Part shown: positions 23,986-33,450 of the stretch, in pieces
How positions within the stretch are numbered: position 1 is the first letter of the stretch
Layout: each line of letters starts with the position of its first letter
The notes under the pieces: model-generated
Told to the model about the DNA's origin: nothing
What the model saw: only the letters and a program-made list of their open reading frames with translations
Databases searched by the model: none
Made by a program: the position numbers and the translations under genes
Assembly: GCF_000970045.1 (NCBI RefSeq)
Contig: NZ_CP009505.1
Coordinates: forward strand, 3,186,808-3,250,807
Length of the DNA: 64,000 bases
Source: Methanosarcina sp. MTP4
GTDB lineage: Archaea > Halobacteriota > Methanosarcinia > Methanosarcinales > Methanosarcinaceae
Reading direction: 5' to 3'

Positions 23986-24225
23986 GGCATGCCCTGAAAA
24001 TTGAAGTTGGAGAACAAGCAGATTAAATGATTGCCTCAAATCAACCCGCCTAAATCAATGAGTAAAAGCATTATTATAACTTATTTTTTATTTTTCGCCC
24101 GATGCTTTCCCCCAGCAACCGATGTACAAACAAATGGAAAAACAAACGAACCCGAAGCACCCGAAGAAGAAAAACCTCAAAACCCAAAAGCTGACTTCCC
24201 AAATCCGAAGCAATCGAAAGTAATT

Positions 24226-24306
24226 CCGCTACCGCCTTCGAAACTTAACATTTAGCCCTACCGGAGGCAGCGGGACGATTCATCTTCATCCGGTAAACGC
24301 CGGCGC
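24226..24306. repeat. 81-bp direct repeat, left copy
   Basis: This copy matches 26146-26226 with four mismatches over 81 bp, exactly 1920 bp away. The first 48 bp have imperfect inverted ends (CCGCTACCGCC and GGAGGCAGCGG). The two copies flank the ATPase gene at 24408-25829. Confidence 0.85.
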
Positions 24307-24407
24307 AGGGCTTGCGGTCTGGTCACCATCTACGCAGGGGTACAGCGCCCATAAACACTGCAGGTTCTGACAGCCGAATTTCGCTTCGGCAAAAGACAAC
24401 AATACAT

Positions 24408-25829
24408 TCATTCCACACCGGCAAAAATGTCTTCTAGGTCAAAGACCATGACCCCGTTCCCCTTTAACTCTGCCTTATTCTCGATCTTCTTTGCAGCAAT
24501 GGCAAAATACTCTTTCCTCTCTTCGTTGTGCCATTGCACAGCCCCGGACTTATCCTTCAGATCATGTAAGATTTTTCTTGCACTCTTACCTGTTAGGGTC
24601 TGCCATTTGCACTCAACGAAGAGGATCTCTTTCGAATCCTCATTCAGTGCAACAAGATCGATCTCGTATGCATTTGCATTTTTTGGTTTTCCCCGGACCT
24701 TACCCCATTGCCTACCAATTTTCTCGAAAACAAAAGGCAATTTGCCGGCGGCATTCAGGTCTATGAAGTATTGTTTGACTATCTCTTCAAAAACATGGCC
24801 GAGGTAATGATCATATGAGTTAGCGATCTTTGATACAATGGCATCCCTGTTTATCTCCAGTATGGACCTCGTCGGAAATACATAGGTGTACCAGAATCTC
24901 ATGAAATTGTCTGAAAGAGCATAGACTGAGCCGGTTTTTATGTCCCGAGTCTTTTTGAGGGTCACAGGCCATTCCCGTGAGAGGAAACCAAGCCCGATGA
25001 GAACACGCAGATATTTCGGGATATTGTGAACAGGTATGCCGGTTTCGTCCGCAATCTCAGAGACCCGGCTCTTTCCCCTGGATATCGCCTCAAGGATCAG
25101 TTCGTAGTTTGTTGGCTCCCTTAACTCTTCCTTTAGCAGGAAGATAGCCTCATCGTAAAGAAAGGTGGCCCTGTTCAATATATTCATATTGACGTTATCG
25201 ATGAACGGGAGAGTCTGGTCAAATTTATTAAGGTAGGCAGGCACACCGCCCAGGCAACCGTATATCCTTACTATTTCCTCTGCATCCTTTTGAGGAAAGA
25301 AATGTCTGATGTGCCTGAACTTCAGAGGCTCAACCTTAATCTGCCCGCTCCTCCGGCCATACAGGGGAGATTTGTAGCCAAGCACTTCATTTTCCATCAT
25401 GCCTACACTTGAACCAAGCAGGACCAGCATGACATTGGCATCCTTAAGATACAGGTCCCATGCTGCCTGGAAAGCCGACATCACCGCACTGCTGCCTTCT
25501 ATTAAGTATGGGACCTCGTCGATTATGATCAGAGACTTACCTTCTGCCTGCTCTGCAACGAACTTGAGGGCTGCATCCCATTTTGGTATCTTCGGCTGGT
25601 ATGTTCCAAGCTGTTCGGACGCTTTTTCCAGAAAGTCCTCTACCTGCCGTTCAAGGTCCAGTTTCTGAGACAGATAATATACAACCGGTTTTCCAGCCGC
25701 AAATTTCAGGGAAAGCTCGGTTTTGCCAACCCTCCTTCTCCCATAGATGACAACAAGTGAAGAAGAATCCCTGGCATATTCAGCCTCAAGGAACTCAAGT
25801 TCTTCAGTGCGGTTAATAAATAGACTCAT
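24408..25829 (-). CDS. Archaeal AAA ATPase with DUF234 nuclease-like C-terminal domain
   Basis: This 473-residue protein has the P-loop YGRRRVGKTEL near residues 29-39, a Walker B IIIDEVPYL near residue 101 and a sensor LLGSS near residue 137. Next comes a winged-helix segment (SRGKSRVSEIADETGIPVHNI, about 250-280). The C-terminal DUF234 region carries EIDLVALNEDSKEILFVECKW, the conserved D...E-K pattern of restriction-nuclease folds. These COG1672-type ATPases are common in archaeal genomes and often mobile; the substrate is unknown. It stands alone and is bracketed by direct repeats. Confidence 0.9.
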   Translation of the reverse strand: MSLFINRTEELEFLEAEYARDSSSLVVIYGRRRVGKTELSLKFAAGKPVVYYLSQKLDLERQVEDFLEKASEQLGTYQPKIPKWDAALKFVAEQAEGKSLIIIDEVPYLIEGSSAVMSAFQAAWDLYLKDANVMLVLLGSSVGMMENEVLGYKSPLYGRRSGQIKVEPLKFRHIRHFFPQKDAEEIVRIYGCLGGVPAYLNKFDQTLPFIDNVNMNILNRATFLYDEAIFLLKEELREPTNYELILEAISRGKSRVSEIADETGIPVHNIPKYLRVLIGLGFLSREWPVTLKKTRDIKTGSVYALSDNFMRFWYTYVFPTRSILEINRDAIVSKIANSYDHYLGHVFEEIVKQYFIDLNAAGKLPFVFEKIGRQWGKVRGKPKNANAYEIDLVALNEDSKEILFVECKWQTLTGKSARKILHDLKDKSGAVQWHNEERKEYFAIAAKKIENKAELKGNGVMVFDLEDIFAGVE

Positions 25830-25935: not shown

Positions 25936-26145
25936 AGCACGCGTCCTTTTCGCTCACTTCGTTCGCTCAAGAGGACAAAAAGACAGGTTTGGACGAGAGT
26001 TCAGAGAAAAACAGGGCAACTGTAATCCCTTACCAAACCTGTCTTGTCCCATTTGCGAAGCAAATGGCCTTTTCCGCAATCCAGAATACAAATACGAAGC
26101 GTAAGGAAAACACTAAACAAAAACCAGATAAAAGCTATGTAAAAA

Positions 26146-26226
26146 CCGCTACCGCCTTCGAAACTTAACATTTAGCCCTACCAGAGGCAGCGGGATAATT
26201 CATCTTCATCCGGTAAACGCCAGCGC
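26146..26226. repeat. 81-bp direct repeat, right copy
   Basis: This is the right copy of the repeat at 24226-24306. It lies between the ATPase gene and the first FGE-like gene. Confidence 0.85.
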
Positions 26227-26413
26227 ACTTCCTTATCAGCCAGAAAATCCGACATCTGCTGGTCAGGAAAATTTTCAGTTTTTTCCGAATATCTTACAGT
26301 AAATATTTTCAGCATTTCTTATCCAGCTTCAATAGAAATAAAGTATTGGAAACCTCCAACGGAGTCTATTCCAACTTACGGATTAAAGTAACGAATTGTT
26401 GAAAACGTGATAA

Positions 26414-28411
26414 TTAAATTTCCCTTAGGACGCGAAAACCTAGGTTGGCGTTGGGGGAGCCGGGTTCTTGGTCGGAGCGATTCGCTGACCGGCAGTCCCT
26501 GGCGAAACTGCTCAAGCAGCCACCCCGCTGGACCCGGATAGAGCTACTTCCACTTTCCCAGGCACTTCCATCAGATGGTGCACCATTATAATTTGAATGA
26601 TATCTGTCCTGGCACCATTCCCAAACATTACCATGCATACCATAAAGGCCCCAGAGATTGGGCTTTTTCTGACCAACAGGATGAGTTTTAATACCGGAGT
26701 TGCCATAATACCATGCGTAATCCCCAAGCTTCGACTCACCATCACCAAAGTAATACCTTGTTGTTGTCCCGGCACGACATGCATATTCCCATTCAGCTTC
26801 GGATGGAAGACGATATTTGTTTTTTCCCTCTATTCCATTGAGTTTTTCGAGAAACTCCTGAGCATCCTCCCAAGAAACCTGTTCAACGGGTAGATCATCT
26901 CCCACATTGTATGAAGGGTTGTTGCCCATAACTTCACGCCATTGTTCCTGAGTAACTTCAAATTTGCCAAGGTAGTATGAATCTTCAATAGTGACTTTAT
27001 GAACCGGACCTTCATTACCACCTCTAGGCTCTTCACCTAAAGGAGATCCCATCATAAATTCCCCCGCAGGGATCTTAACGAACTCCATGTCTATGGTGTT
27101 CGTATAAGTATCCGAATTTTGTGAGGACGCTGTTTCAGAGTCGGTGTTCGAACCAAGAAACATAGCCACGATGCCTATAAGAAGGACACCGAAAATGAGA
27201 CTGAAGACAAGTATTCCTTTTCCGGAAGAGCTCTTCGGTTTTGTTGAGGAGGACGAAGAAGACGGCTTTTTTGGAGGAACTTTCTGTTGAGCAGAAGATT
27301 TTGTTATATGTTTTGAAGCCTGAGTTTTTGTGGCTTCCTCAAGCTTCTTTCTCTCGGTTTCATCTTGTTTTTTTAATTCAACTTCCTGCTTATCTTTTCT
27401 CTCCACTTCCTCTCTTTGCCTACACTTTTCATCTTCAGCTTTCTTTAAGTGGGCTTCTTCCTGCTGTCTGAGCAAACTCTCCTGTTCTTCTCTTTCCCTT
27501 CTGGATTTCTCTTCCTCTCCAGCTTCCTCCTTTTCGGAGATGAGAGTAGAATGCTGGATTACGCTGTCTTCCACCAGAATGTTAACGGGGCAAGTCCCGT
27601 CCATGCTGCAAAGGTCGAGTAGATTGCTCCTCTGAATAACAGAATTGTTAATTGTTACATTGATGACATTGCCCTTACCACTCGCTTTGAATTCGATGCT
27701 GTGCTTCAGGCTGCGCCCGACTTCCGCAAGAAGGCCAGTCAGGGCTTCGGCGGTTTCCGTGGCTGCGAAGAGTTCGAGGAGCTGCTTTTCAGAAGAAATA
27801 TAGACCTTAATGACGATGTCGGCTTTCGTGACCTTGGTTTTCCCGTAATACCAGATCTCCCAGCCCCTGCCGTCTTTTGTCTTCAGGGTGCGGACGTGGC
27901 GCACGTCGTGCTTTTCCACAACTTCCTGGGCGATGGAGGCGAGTTTTTCTATGTCAAAACCGTGCTGGATTTCATAGACCTTGCTGTCCTTGCTCGGGAG
28001 CTTTTCGATGAACTCCTTGAGCCTCCCCACGTTGATGTCAAGGTCGGTCTTGATGATCGGGCAGACCACGCTGATAAGTTTGGGCTCCATAAAAACAGAA
28101 CTGAGCTTGCCCCGGGCGTCCCTGGAAGTTAGCTGGCAATTGATCTCAGCGCCCCTTGAGCACATCAAGGGATCAAAATAAACAGCTATGGACTTGGACG
28201 TACCCCCGTTTATGTTGCCCAGCAGGATTTTGCCGTTCCTTTTTTCGTAATGAGGTTCGTAACGGTCTATCCGGAGGAGGTCGTCTTCAAAAAGAAAGTC
28301 GAGAGTAACGTCTGTTATTACAGAAGGAGATTTGTTCGAAACAGACATCTTTAAGCGTATAAACCCCTGGTAGAATTCGGTTTCACGCTTAATCTCAATT
28401 TGAGAGTCCAA
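26414..28411 (-). CDS. Membrane-anchored coiled-coil protein with C-terminal FGE-sulfatase (CLec-like) domain, copy 1
   Basis: This 665-residue protein has four parts: an N-terminal globular region (1-290) that ends in two motifs, VTINNSVIQRS and ILVEDSVIQHS; a charged Glu/Lys/Arg coiled coil (about 300-385); a single membrane helix (GILVFSLIFGVLLIGIVAMF, about 400-420); and an FGE-sulfatase domain outside the membrane (445-665) with IPAGEFMMGS, LPSEAEWEYACRAG and MHGNVWEWCQD. It starts at a TTG with GAGAGGT eight bases upstream. The last 55 residues differ strongly from copy 2 although the core is alike. I do not see the paired cysteines of true formylglycine-generating enzymes in a clear position, so it may bind ligands rather than catalyse. 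Confidence 0.85.
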   Translation of the reverse strand: MDSQIEIKRETEFYQGFIRLKMSVSNKSPSVITDVTLDFLFEDDLLRIDRYEPHYEKRNGKILLGNINGGTSKSIAVYFDPLMCSRGAEINCQLTSRDARGKLSSVFMEPKLISVVCPIIKTDLDINVGRLKEFIEKLPSKDSKVYEIQHGFDIEKLASIAQEVVEKHDVRHVRTLKTKDGRGWEIWYYGKTKVTKADIVIKVYISSEKQLLELFAATETAEALTGLLAEVGRSLKHSIEFKASGKGNVINVTINNSVIQRSNLLDLCSMDGTCPVNILVEDSVIQHSTLISEKEEAGEEEKSRREREEQESLLRQQEEAHLKKAEDEKCRQREEVERKDKQEVELKKQDETERKKLEEATKTQASKHITKSSAQQKVPPKKPSSSSSSTKPKSSSGKGILVFSLIFGVLLIGIVAMFLGSNTDSETASSQNSDTYTNTIDMEFVKIPAGEFMMGSPLGEEPRGGNEGPVHKVTIEDSYYLGKFEVTQEQWREVMGNNPSYNVGDDLPVEQVSWEDAQEFLEKLNGIEGKNKYRLPSEAEWEYACRAGTTTRYYFGDGESKLGDYAWYYGNSGIKTHPVGQKKPNLWGLYGMHGNVWEWCQDRYHSNYNGAPSDGSAWESGSSSIRVQRGGCLSSFARDCRSANRSDQEPGSPNANLGFRVLREI

Positions 28412-28617
28412 CCCTTTTTACCTCTCGACTTCAATTTTCACTATTTTCCGAGTACTCGATGGTGAATATTTTCAACATTTTTCTCCAACTTCAATATTAT
28501 TAATTTTTGGAAGATTCTGGCGTGGCTCAGCACCTCAGGCCCGACGGCTGACGCATGCGTCGGACCTTCGGGTTTTGCCGTGATCACCCCCTACTTTAAA
28601 TATAAAGTGGTGAGTGG
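28412..28617. other. Spacer between FGE copies, with a segment repeated downstream of copy 1
   Basis: The segment at about 28438-28510 (ATTTTCCGAG and AATATTTTCA motifs) resembles 26277-26345, which lies downstream of copy 1. So the duplicated unit includes the gene plus its downstream flank. A GC-rich stretch at 28528-28585 with CCGACGGC/ACGCATGCGT phrases may form hairpins. Confidence 0.5.
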
Positions 28618-31020
28618 TTACACGGCCCTCAGAACACGGAAACCGAGGAAGCTGCTACGGGAGCCAGCGCCGTTATAGCTACGGGTAGCTGACCGACAGT
28701 TCCTGGCGCAGTTGGCCCCGCTACCGCCCCGACGGATCCGGGCAAAGGGATTTCTAGATTCACAGGCACTTCCATCAGACAGAGCCACACTATAATCTGA
28801 ACAATAAGTGTCCTGGCACCACTCCCAGACATTGCCATGCATATCATAAAGACCCCAGGGATTGGGCTTCTTCTGGCCAACTGAATGAGTCTTGCTCCCC
28901 GAGTTTTCAGTATACCATGCATAATCCCCAAGTTTTGAATCTCCATCACCAAAGTAATACCTTGTTGTTGTCCCGGCACGACATGCATATTCCCATTCCG
29001 CTTCAGATGGCAGACGATATTTGTTTGTGCCTTCCTTTTCATTGAGTTTTTCGATAAACTCCTGAACATCATTCCAGGATACTTGTTCAACGGGAAGATC
29101 ATCGCCTTCGAAATAAGAAGGATTGCTGCCCATCACTTCACCCCACTGTTCCTGAGTTACTTCGTATTTACCCAGGTAATAAGACTCTTCTATTGTGACT
29201 TTATGGACAGGATCTTCGCCATTATATCTGCCTTCTTCGTCTGAAGGAGAACCCATCCTGAATTCTCCCTCAGGAATGAGCACGAATTCCATGCCTACAG
29301 AGTTTGTATAGGTATCAGGGTTTTGTGAGGAAGATGTTTGAGCAGAATTGACCGTTGCTGCAGGGGCATCTTCGTCGGTGTTTTCAGAAGAAGTAGTTAC
29401 AGGAGCTGGCTGGATTTCCGGAGTGCTGTCGCCAGAGTCGCCATTCAAACCAAAGAACGCGACTGCAGAACCTATAAGAAGGACGCCGAAAATGAGGCTG
29501 AAAACAAGGATTCCTTTTCCGGAAGAACTTCCCGGCTTTTTTGGAGGAACTTTCTGTTGAGCAGGAGGTTTAGTTATTGGTTTTGTAGCTGGAACTTTTG
29601 CGACTTCCTCACGCTTCTTTCTTTCAAGTTCTTCCCCTTCTCTCCTTTCATCTGCCTGACGCCAGCTTTCCTGTTCCTCAAATTTTCTTCTCTTCCGATC
29701 TTCTTCTCTTCTCTTAATTTCTTCTTCCCTTTGCTTTCTGAGCTTTTCCTGCTCTTCCCTTTCCCTTCTGGCTTTTTCCTCTTCTGCTCTGCGTTTTCTC
29801 ACCTGAGCTTCCCGCTGTCTTCTTTCCAGAGCTTCTTTCTCTTTTTTCTCCCTTTCAGCTTCTTCTCTCTTCCTGCGGAGTTCTTCCTGCTGCTTTCTTT
29901 CCTGCTCTTTTTTCCTCTTATCAGCTTCTTCCTGAGCCTTTCTTTTGATTTCTTCTACGTCCCTTGCAGCTTCTTCCCGCTGTCTTCTGAGCTTTTCCTG
30001 TTCCTCGATTTCCTTTTCCCTGCGCAGCCTTTCCTCTTCAGCTTTCTTTAAGCGGGTTTCTTCTTCCCGCTGTCTGCGCAGCTTCTCCTGTTCTTCCCTT
30101 TCTTTCCTCAGGCGCTCATTTTCCTCTCTGGCTTCGTCCTTTTCGGAGATGAGGGTGGAGTGCTGGATTAAGCTGTCTTCCACAAGGATGTTAACGGGGC
30201 AGGTCCCGTCCATACTGCAGAGGTCGAGGAGGTTGCTCCTCTGGATCACAGAATCTTTAATTGTTACATTGATGACATTGCCCTTGCCGCTCGCCCGGAA
30301 TTCTATGCCGTGCTTAAGGTCGCGCCCGACTTCTGCAAGGAGCCCGGTAAGGGCTTCAGCGCTTTCCGTCGCTGCAAAGAGTTCAAGGAGCTGCTTTTCA
30401 AAGGAAATTGAGACCTTGATAACGATGTCGGCTTTTGTGACCTTGGTTTTCCCGTAGTACCAGATCTCCCAATCCCTGCCGTCTTTTGTTTTCAGGGTGC
30501 GGACGTGGCGCACGTCGTGCTTTTCCACGACTTCGCGGGCGATTGAGGAGAGCTTGCTTACGTCGAAACCGTGATGGATTTCATAGGCCTTGCTGTCCTT
30601 GCTCGGGAGCTTTTCTATGAACTCCTTGAGCCTCCCCACGTTGATGTCAAGCTCGGTTTTAATGATCGGACAGACCACGCTGATAAGTTTGGGCTCCATA
30701 AAAACAGAACTGAGCTTGCCCTGGGCGTCCCTGGAAGTTACCTGGCAGTTGATTTCAGCGCCCCTTGTGCACATAAGGGGGTCAAAATAAACGGCAATGG
30801 ACTTAGACGTGCCTCCGCTTATGTTGCCCAGCAGGATTTTCCCGTTCCTGACTTCGTAGGGAGGCTCATAACGGTCTATCCTTAAGAGGTCATCTTCAAA
30901 AAGAAAGTCGAGAGTGACATCTGTTATTACAGAAGGAGCTTTGTTCGAAACAGACATCTTTAAGCGTATAAAACCCTGGTAGAATTCGGTTTCACGCTTA
31001 ATCTCAATTTGAGAGTCCAA
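28618..31020 (-). CDS. Membrane-anchored coiled-coil protein with C-terminal FGE-sulfatase domain, copy 2
   Basis: This 800-residue paralogue of the preceding gene has an N-terminal region almost identical to copy 1 (1-290), a longer coiled coil of EEQEKLRRQREE-type repeats (about 300-480), a membrane helix (GILVFSLIFGVLLIGSAVAFF, about 505-525), a Ser/Thr-rich linker, and the FGE-sulfatase domain (580-800). The start is a TTG with GAGAGGT, as in copy 1. The C-terminal 55 residues are recast, with many changes in codons of the NNC/NNT form. The charged coiled coil would lie in the cytoplasm and the FGE domain outside. It is divergent from the coiled-coil gene at 31168, with a TATA-like element (ACTATATAG) between them. 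Confidence 0.85.
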   Translation of the reverse strand: MDSQIEIKRETEFYQGFIRLKMSVSNKAPSVITDVTLDFLFEDDLLRIDRYEPPYEVRNGKILLGNISGGTSKSIAVYFDPLMCTRGAEINCQVTSRDAQGKLSSVFMEPKLISVVCPIIKTELDINVGRLKEFIEKLPSKDSKAYEIHHGFDVSKLSSIAREVVEKHDVRHVRTLKTKDGRDWEIWYYGKTKVTKADIVIKVSISFEKQLLELFAATESAEALTGLLAEVGRDLKHGIEFRASGKGNVINVTIKDSVIQRSNLLDLCSMDGTCPVNILVEDSLIQHSTLISEKDEAREENERLRKEREEQEKLRRQREEETRLKKAEEERLRREKEIEEQEKLRRQREEAARDVEEIKRKAQEEADKRKKEQERKQQEELRRKREEAEREKKEKEALERRQREAQVRKRRAEEEKARREREEQEKLRKQREEEIKRREEDRKRRKFEEQESWRQADERREGEELERKKREEVAKVPATKPITKPPAQQKVPPKKPGSSSGKGILVFSLIFGVLLIGSAVAFFGLNGDSGDSTPEIQPAPVTTSSENTDEDAPAATVNSAQTSSSQNPDTYTNSVGMEFVLIPEGEFRMGSPSDEEGRYNGEDPVHKVTIEESYYLGKYEVTQEQWGEVMGSNPSYFEGDDLPVEQVSWNDVQEFIEKLNEKEGTNKYRLPSEAEWEYACRAGTTTRYYFGDGDSKLGDYAWYTENSGSKTHSVGQKKPNPWGLYDMHGNVWEWCQDTYCSDYSVALSDGSACESRNPFARIRRGGSGANCARNCRSATRSYNGAGSRSSFLGFRVLRAV

Positions 31021-32073: not shown

Positions 32074-33450
<1,377 letters not shown>

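Follow-up and report, generated by a model that had tools for sequence, protein, structure and literature searches.

Does the sharp divergence at the ends of two otherwise similar membrane proteins record the work of a diversity-generating retroelement (DGR), and if so, is that element still acting on them? Proteins A and B are encoded side by side in the window, by which we mean the whole 64-kb stretch of DNA that was analysed, and a third relative, C, lies close by. The original prediction, concerned with 26417-28790 (the span of the A and B 3′ ends), proposed DGR-type variable ends and left it open whether the proteins were old targets, targets served in trans or simply divergent paralogues. 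The genome that contains the window is 4.21 Mb long on a single contig (G000); together with three sister species (G001, G002 and G003) it makes up the four genomes of the genus considered here. The relevant features are as follows.

Protein A: 26414-28411, minus strand; N-terminal domain, coiled coil, one transmembrane helix and a C-terminal FGE-sulfatase/C-type-lectin domain
Protein B: 28618-31020, minus strand; paralogue of A with the same architecture
Protein C: 32074-33450, minus strand; low-complexity KAE repeats, transmembrane helix and FGE domain
Variable region of A: 26424-26548, minus strand; RGG..GFR core at 26432-26527
Variable region of B: 28628-28752, minus strand; RGG..GFR core at 28636-28731
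Former variable region of C: 32092-32187, minus strand; NNY at 11 of 11 AAY sites

Architecture of the FGE proteins

The FGE domains of A and B match Pfam PF03781 (E = 4e-51 and 5e-49, respectively), and the C-terminal variable region of each protein lies within this C-type-lectin/FGE domain, as in DGR targets. By sequence, their nearest solved structures are Treponema denticola TvpA (PDB id 2y3c; E = 4e-31, with the alignment reaching residue 661) and PvdO (5hha); TvpA comes from a bacterial DGR that carries a reverse transcriptase (RT), whereas PvdO is not a DGR target. The N-terminal domain that A and B have in common has no Pfam match. In A the transmembrane helix spans residues ~400-418 with positive residues N-terminal to it, and this single helix with its flanking charges indicates that the lectin-like domain probably lies outside the membrane, where it would bind a ligand. 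Protein C shares the transmembrane helix and FGE domain with A and B, and its (KAE)n low-complexity repeat is found at window positions 33110-33260. A search for the FGE family across the genome returned nine genes and one partial match, the latter being the template repeat described below.

An adenine footprint in the variable ends of A and B

A and B are 91% identical over the N-terminal 290 residues, 79% identical over the FGE scaffold and only 49% identical over the last 41 codons of the variable region. The predicted pattern of a near-identical N-terminus, a similar FGE domain and a sharply divergent end is therefore borne out, and the RGG..C.RSA.R..GFR framework is indeed retained within the divergent ends. 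Template-adenine sites were defined from a Methanolobus template and the template repeat at 403 kb (both described below), independently of A and B. At codon positions 1 and 2 of the 41 codons, A and B differ at 22 of 38 template-adenine sites and at 7 of 44 others (p = 8.6e-5). Changes at these two positions are almost as frequent as at position 3 in the variable region, unlike in the scaffold. Eleven AAY codons are common to both templates, and at these A has NNY in 10/11, B in 11/11 and C in 11/11, against a background of 0.53-0.56 in the FGE scaffold; this puts numbers to the earlier observation that the changed codons are of the form NNC or NNT, as an AAY template would produce. In the two Ser-to-Ser switches (AGT/TCT and TCC/AGC), codon positions 1 and 2 are altered while the third base is unchanged. 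Both proteins thus combine a concentration of differences at template adenines with the AAY-to-NNY conversion expected of DGR targets.

Part of the adenine bias may reflect relaxed constraint, as the template-adenine sites could be exposed, tolerant positions of the lectin fold; the retention of NNY disfavours this as the whole explanation. The framework also contains silent differences, as noted in the original prediction, and the silent sites of A and B are as diverged as the scaffold, which argues that the two genes are not kept alike by the surviving template.

A template repeat far from the window

No template repeat was found in the 64-kb window, as the original prediction had stated. 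Elsewhere in the genome, 2.8 million bases away, a live-looking template repeat is present at C1:403036-403161. It reads NSSNRVIRGGSWNNNARNCRSANRNRNDPDNRDNNVGFRLLS, is noncoding in its context and matches the end of the FGE domain only. The gene directly before it, at 402-403 kb, encodes a caspase-FGE protein and differs from the template at 21 of 34 adenines and at none of the 89 other bases (p = 3.8e-15), so that this gene has a cognate template. In one sister species (G002) an FGE gene is likewise followed directly by its own template, with 17 of 33 adenines and none of 90 other bases differing. The adenine-only relation between template and target that marks a complete DGR is therefore seen in both species, and their two pairs combined show 0/179 non-adenine differences. 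Upstream of the caspase-FGE gene lies a KAP-NTPase-FGE gene, which differs from the template at 14 adenines and 4 non-adenine bases. Compared with each other, the KAP-FGE and caspase-FGE genes differ by 22% in the scaffold but at only 4/89 non-adenine sites of the variable region (23/34 adenine sites), indicating that both have been rewritten from a common template.

The variable regions of A and B do not behave in this way. Relative to the 403 kb template, A shows differences at 20/34 adenines and 23/89 non-adenine bases, and B at 21/34 and 21/89, so this template was not a recent donor to either gene and is rejected as their present one. Between A and B, 25/89 non-adenine sites of the variable region differ, with a scaffold difference of 19%; set against the KAP-FGE/caspase-FGE pair, this points to retirement of A and B from diversification. 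Against all four templates, A and B show 15-26 non-adenine differences, and neither the genome template nor the window provided a cognate template identical to A or B at every non-adenine base. The genome search advocated in the original prediction thus yielded a template, but one that differs from A and B at many non-adenine bases, and no DGR RT (see below).

A second template-like stretch, truncated and decayed, lies behind the KAP-FGE gene at C1:400384-400460 (L013:15384-15460). It was considered as the template of that gene and set aside for its decay.

In a Methanosarcina-like genome of a different genus (G111), the stretch corresponding to C1:403036-403330, which covers template and RNA, is 92% identical over 294 bp (L131:7302-7595), compared with 74-82% in the flanks. 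It follows that the element was selected or exchanged until recently. G111 itself has a broken KAP-FGE gene, to whose end the template is fused.

A structured RNA domain behind each template and downstream of A

Behind each template lies a conserved stretch of ~150 nt. Its consensus fold comprises five helices showing compensatory changes; 9 pairs are changed on both sides, a level reached by 1 of 500 shuffles, and the covariation exceeds that of slid controls and was equalled in only 0-1 of 500 shuffles. A covariance model of this stretch (R1) matched seven complete DGR loci outside its training set (L141-L145, L185 and the Prosthecochloris locus L090; E = 3e-25 to 5e-12), two of which, L141 and L142, look like one locus in two assemblies. 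Where the RNA core word lies beside a standard template (four loci), the distance from the start of the RGG codon to that of the word is 160 nt. The fold, the R1 matches and the fixed spacing together identify the stretch as the 3′ domain of a DGR RNA, the counterpart of the spacer in Bordetella phage BPP-1. A structured RNA 3′ domain thus follows the template here, as in a complete DGR. R1 did not match the BPP-1 locus itself, and Rfam gave no match to the domain. In BPP-1, where mutagenesis is likewise directed to adenines, the spacer beside the template folds and recruits bRT-Avd (PMC12875486); it is placed between template and brt, whereas the archaeal systems have both template and spacer after the RT gene.

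Two copies of this domain, overlooked in the original prediction, are located just downstream of A, with no template repeat in front of either:

DGR-RNA 3′ domain copy: 26143-26279, minus strand; R1 match of 65.1 bits (E = 2.6e-18) over the full length 1-151, outside the training set
Second DGR-RNA 3′ domain copy: 24223-24370, minus strand; R1 match of 139.1 bits, this copy being in the training set

Over 158 nt, the copy at 24223-24370 shares 74% identity with the spacer that follows the genome's template. Only four full copies exist in the genome, each beside an FGE gene: one behind the template, one behind an FGE gene at 4.05 Mb and the two in the window. Two template-less copies at the A/B locus are the remains to be expected of a local DGR. 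Between them, at 24408-25829, lies a DUF234/AAA ATPase gene, possibly a later arrival at a decayed DGR.

Complete retroelements in related archaea

Complete cassettes were found in Methanolobus psychrotolerans YSF-03 (G082, L130/L140) and in the uncultured archaeon LFW-280_2_2 (L169), both in the order target, HRDC protein, Avd, RT, template and spacer. Template and target differ at 17/40 adenines and 0/83 other bases in M. psychrotolerans, and at 28/32 and 1/91 in L169. The FGE domains of their targets are 59-68% identical to that of A (68% for M. psychrotolerans and 59% for L169), and the L169 target also has the N-terminal domain of A and B, at 44% identity to A. Both templates carry the RGGSWNNN..GFR framework seen in the window, and their RNA 3′ domains are homologous to ours. 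These relatives hold HRDC, Avd, RT and template in one cassette, whereas the window's genome lacks Avd and DGR RT and the window itself lacks a template. The case for DGR-type variable ends, as first proposed, accordingly stands on the adenine-only template pair in the genome, the homologous complete DGRs and the two RNA 3′ domains in the window.

DGR cassettes with the same template peptide also occur at L141 and L142. The MAG contigs concerned carry the labels Limnochordia and Dehalococcoidia, and their sediment samples have similar names. The RT of these cassettes is ~60% identical to that of Methanolobus, and mis-binning is possible.

Bacterial systems offer a further parallel. In Thiohalocapsa PB-PSB1 and other multicellular bacteria, whose DGRs diversify putative antigen sensors (PMC10907252), and in the conflict systems described by Kaur et al. 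(PMC7159879), C-type-lectin/FGE targets are fused to KAP NTPases or caspase-like peptidases, and there too a genome has several targets, with remote ones among them, and some loci are incomplete. Those genomes encode DGR RTs, whereas the four genomes of the window's genus yielded none. By analogy, a role in recognition or conflict is suggested by the fusion of FGE domains to a caspase and to a KAP NTPase at the 403 kb locus (PMC7159879, PMC10907252).

The reverse transcriptase is missing

The window contains no RVT_1 match, in line with the original prediction. In the whole genome there are two RTs, both above the group II intron/maturase cut-off, and neither was accepted as the missing enzyme: Rfam intron matches mark L001 as a group II intron, and L002 scores above the TIGR04416 cut-off and carries the motif QG rather than SQ. 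L002 is also ruled out as a solution shared within the genus, because G002 keeps a template yet has no RVT_1 match. L002 (also listed as L073, C1:3720250) is of the group II type, has no intron match in Rfam and lies ~5 kb from a CRISPR array. A search of the genus's four genomes found no RT of the DGR clade (SQ motif). A DGR-RT profile detected a single true DGR RT among 112 genomes of the family, that of M. psychrotolerans, and a profile built from close RTs found nothing further. The RT of G003 (L080, C89:5036-5605) is retron-type (best match retron_St85, below the curated cut-off) and not of the DGR kind. For Avd, our profile A5 gave a best E of 0.065 in the window's genome, which is not significant, and no Avd was found in the genus's four genomes; Pfam PF05635 had no match in the genome and none in any control either. 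A viral or plasmid source was likewise rejected: phage and plasmid records contained no template-like match, occurrences of the RNA core word at IMG/VR loci were due to chance, and the RT relatives on viral contigs were at most 39% identical.

Templates thus persist without a recognisable RT in two species, where they match their neighbouring targets at every non-adenine base. That match, with no DGR RT found in the genus, implies that some RT acted recently there. The enzyme may have disappeared only lately, or it may come from elsewhere. It is conceivable, if unlikely, that this genus, and perhaps Methanosarcina, maintains functional templates, RNA and targets while having no DGR RT of its own, the enzyme either arriving from outside on a transient mobile element or going unrecognised; hypermutation of the recognition proteins would then be on only while that enzyme is present.

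The same recent activity would favour A and B being still diversified in trans, from the 403 kb template or another, by an RT from outside the assembly (plasmid, virus or neighbouring cells) or one too divergent to be recognised, and action on remote targets has been reported in Thiohalocapsa PB-PSB1 (PMC10907252). We nevertheless regard this as rather improbable, for at non-adenine sites A and B differ from the template and from each other at least as much as the scaffold does (19%), which speaks against recent rewriting from one shared template, and a second intact template is absent from the window.

Comparison with sister species

Comparison with related strains, as called for in the original prediction, shows the differences between species in both A and B mapping to template adenines. 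B and its G001 counterpart differ at 25/38 template-adenine sites and 7/44 others (p = 4.4e-6), and A and its G002 counterpart (L069) at 25/38 and 2/44 (p = 1.7e-9). In B the silent difference is 0.21 in the scaffold and 0.27 in the N-terminal part; as the former does not exceed the latter, diversification of B continued after its lineage split from that of G001. In A the silent (4-fold-site) difference from G002 rises from 0.17 in the N-terminal part to 0.51 in the FGE scaffold, and this step points to exchange of the entire FGE domain through recombination, so that not every change arose in situ. Taken further, the ends might have been made once by a DGR, with most present differences among A, B and their orthologues due to recombination swapping whole FGE domains among paralogues, several of which the genome offers. 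We think this quite improbable, since in B 25/38 template-adenine sites differ with no excess of scaffold divergence and a swap is unneeded there.

The original prediction had named as contrary evidence a genome with neither RT nor template, together with ends that are fixed or that change away from adenines. The genome has a template and the differences map to adenines; the RT is missing. Protein C, put forward as a third copy, shares the NNY codons at AAY sites, yet its variable region is 88-93% identical across the four species with 0-2/38 template-adenine sites differing. As its sequence reads, C is a fixed descendant of a former variable protein.

A probable retired target pair of a lost local DGR

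Of the readings initially left open, old targets fit A and B best. We consider it probable that the two are variable proteins of a DGR, now retired: they would be former targets of a lost local element, since their variable regions are homogenised neither with each other nor with the surviving template and no DGR RT was found. An ancestral DGR RT with Avd would have copied a template-repeat RNA, consisting of the template and its structured 3′ spacer, misreading adenines; the cDNA would then have taken the place of the codons at the C-terminal end of the FGE/C-type-lectin domain, turning AAY template codons into NNY. Such mutagenic retrohoming presumably took place in the past and relied on an RT homologous to that of Methanolobus. 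Subsequently the A/B locus would have lost its own template, Avd and RT, leaving A and B fixed and slowly drifting.

That A, B and C are instead ordinary membrane FGE paralogues whose ligand-binding ends evolve fast under positive selection, with no DGR involved, is highly improbable and in its strong form already refuted: the nine FGE genes, the exposed loops that change in any lectin-like fold and the silent framework differences would all allow it, but not the NNY at 21 of 22 template-AAY codons of A and B (background 0.55), the Ser AGY/TCY switches that keep the third base, or the genome's template repeat, the homologous targets of complete DGRs and the DGR-RNA domains beside A.

These results tie hypervariable membrane proteins and caspase- and KAP-fused proteins of Methanosarcina relatives to a DGR. 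A DGR in Methanolobus is named nowhere in the literature searched, and the consulted text of papers pairing DGRs with Methanosarcina describes none there; DGRs of methanogens are hardly described so far. RT-first surveys would overlook loci of this kind, and the conserved RNA domain can be used to find DGR RNAs that lack a nearby RT gene.

Decayed template loci are present in all three sister species (L065, L066 and L067 in G001, G003 and G002, respectively), where the 3′ end of the template (TTTCGCTTGCTGAGTTC) and the RNA domain are left; in two of the three an insertion separates them.
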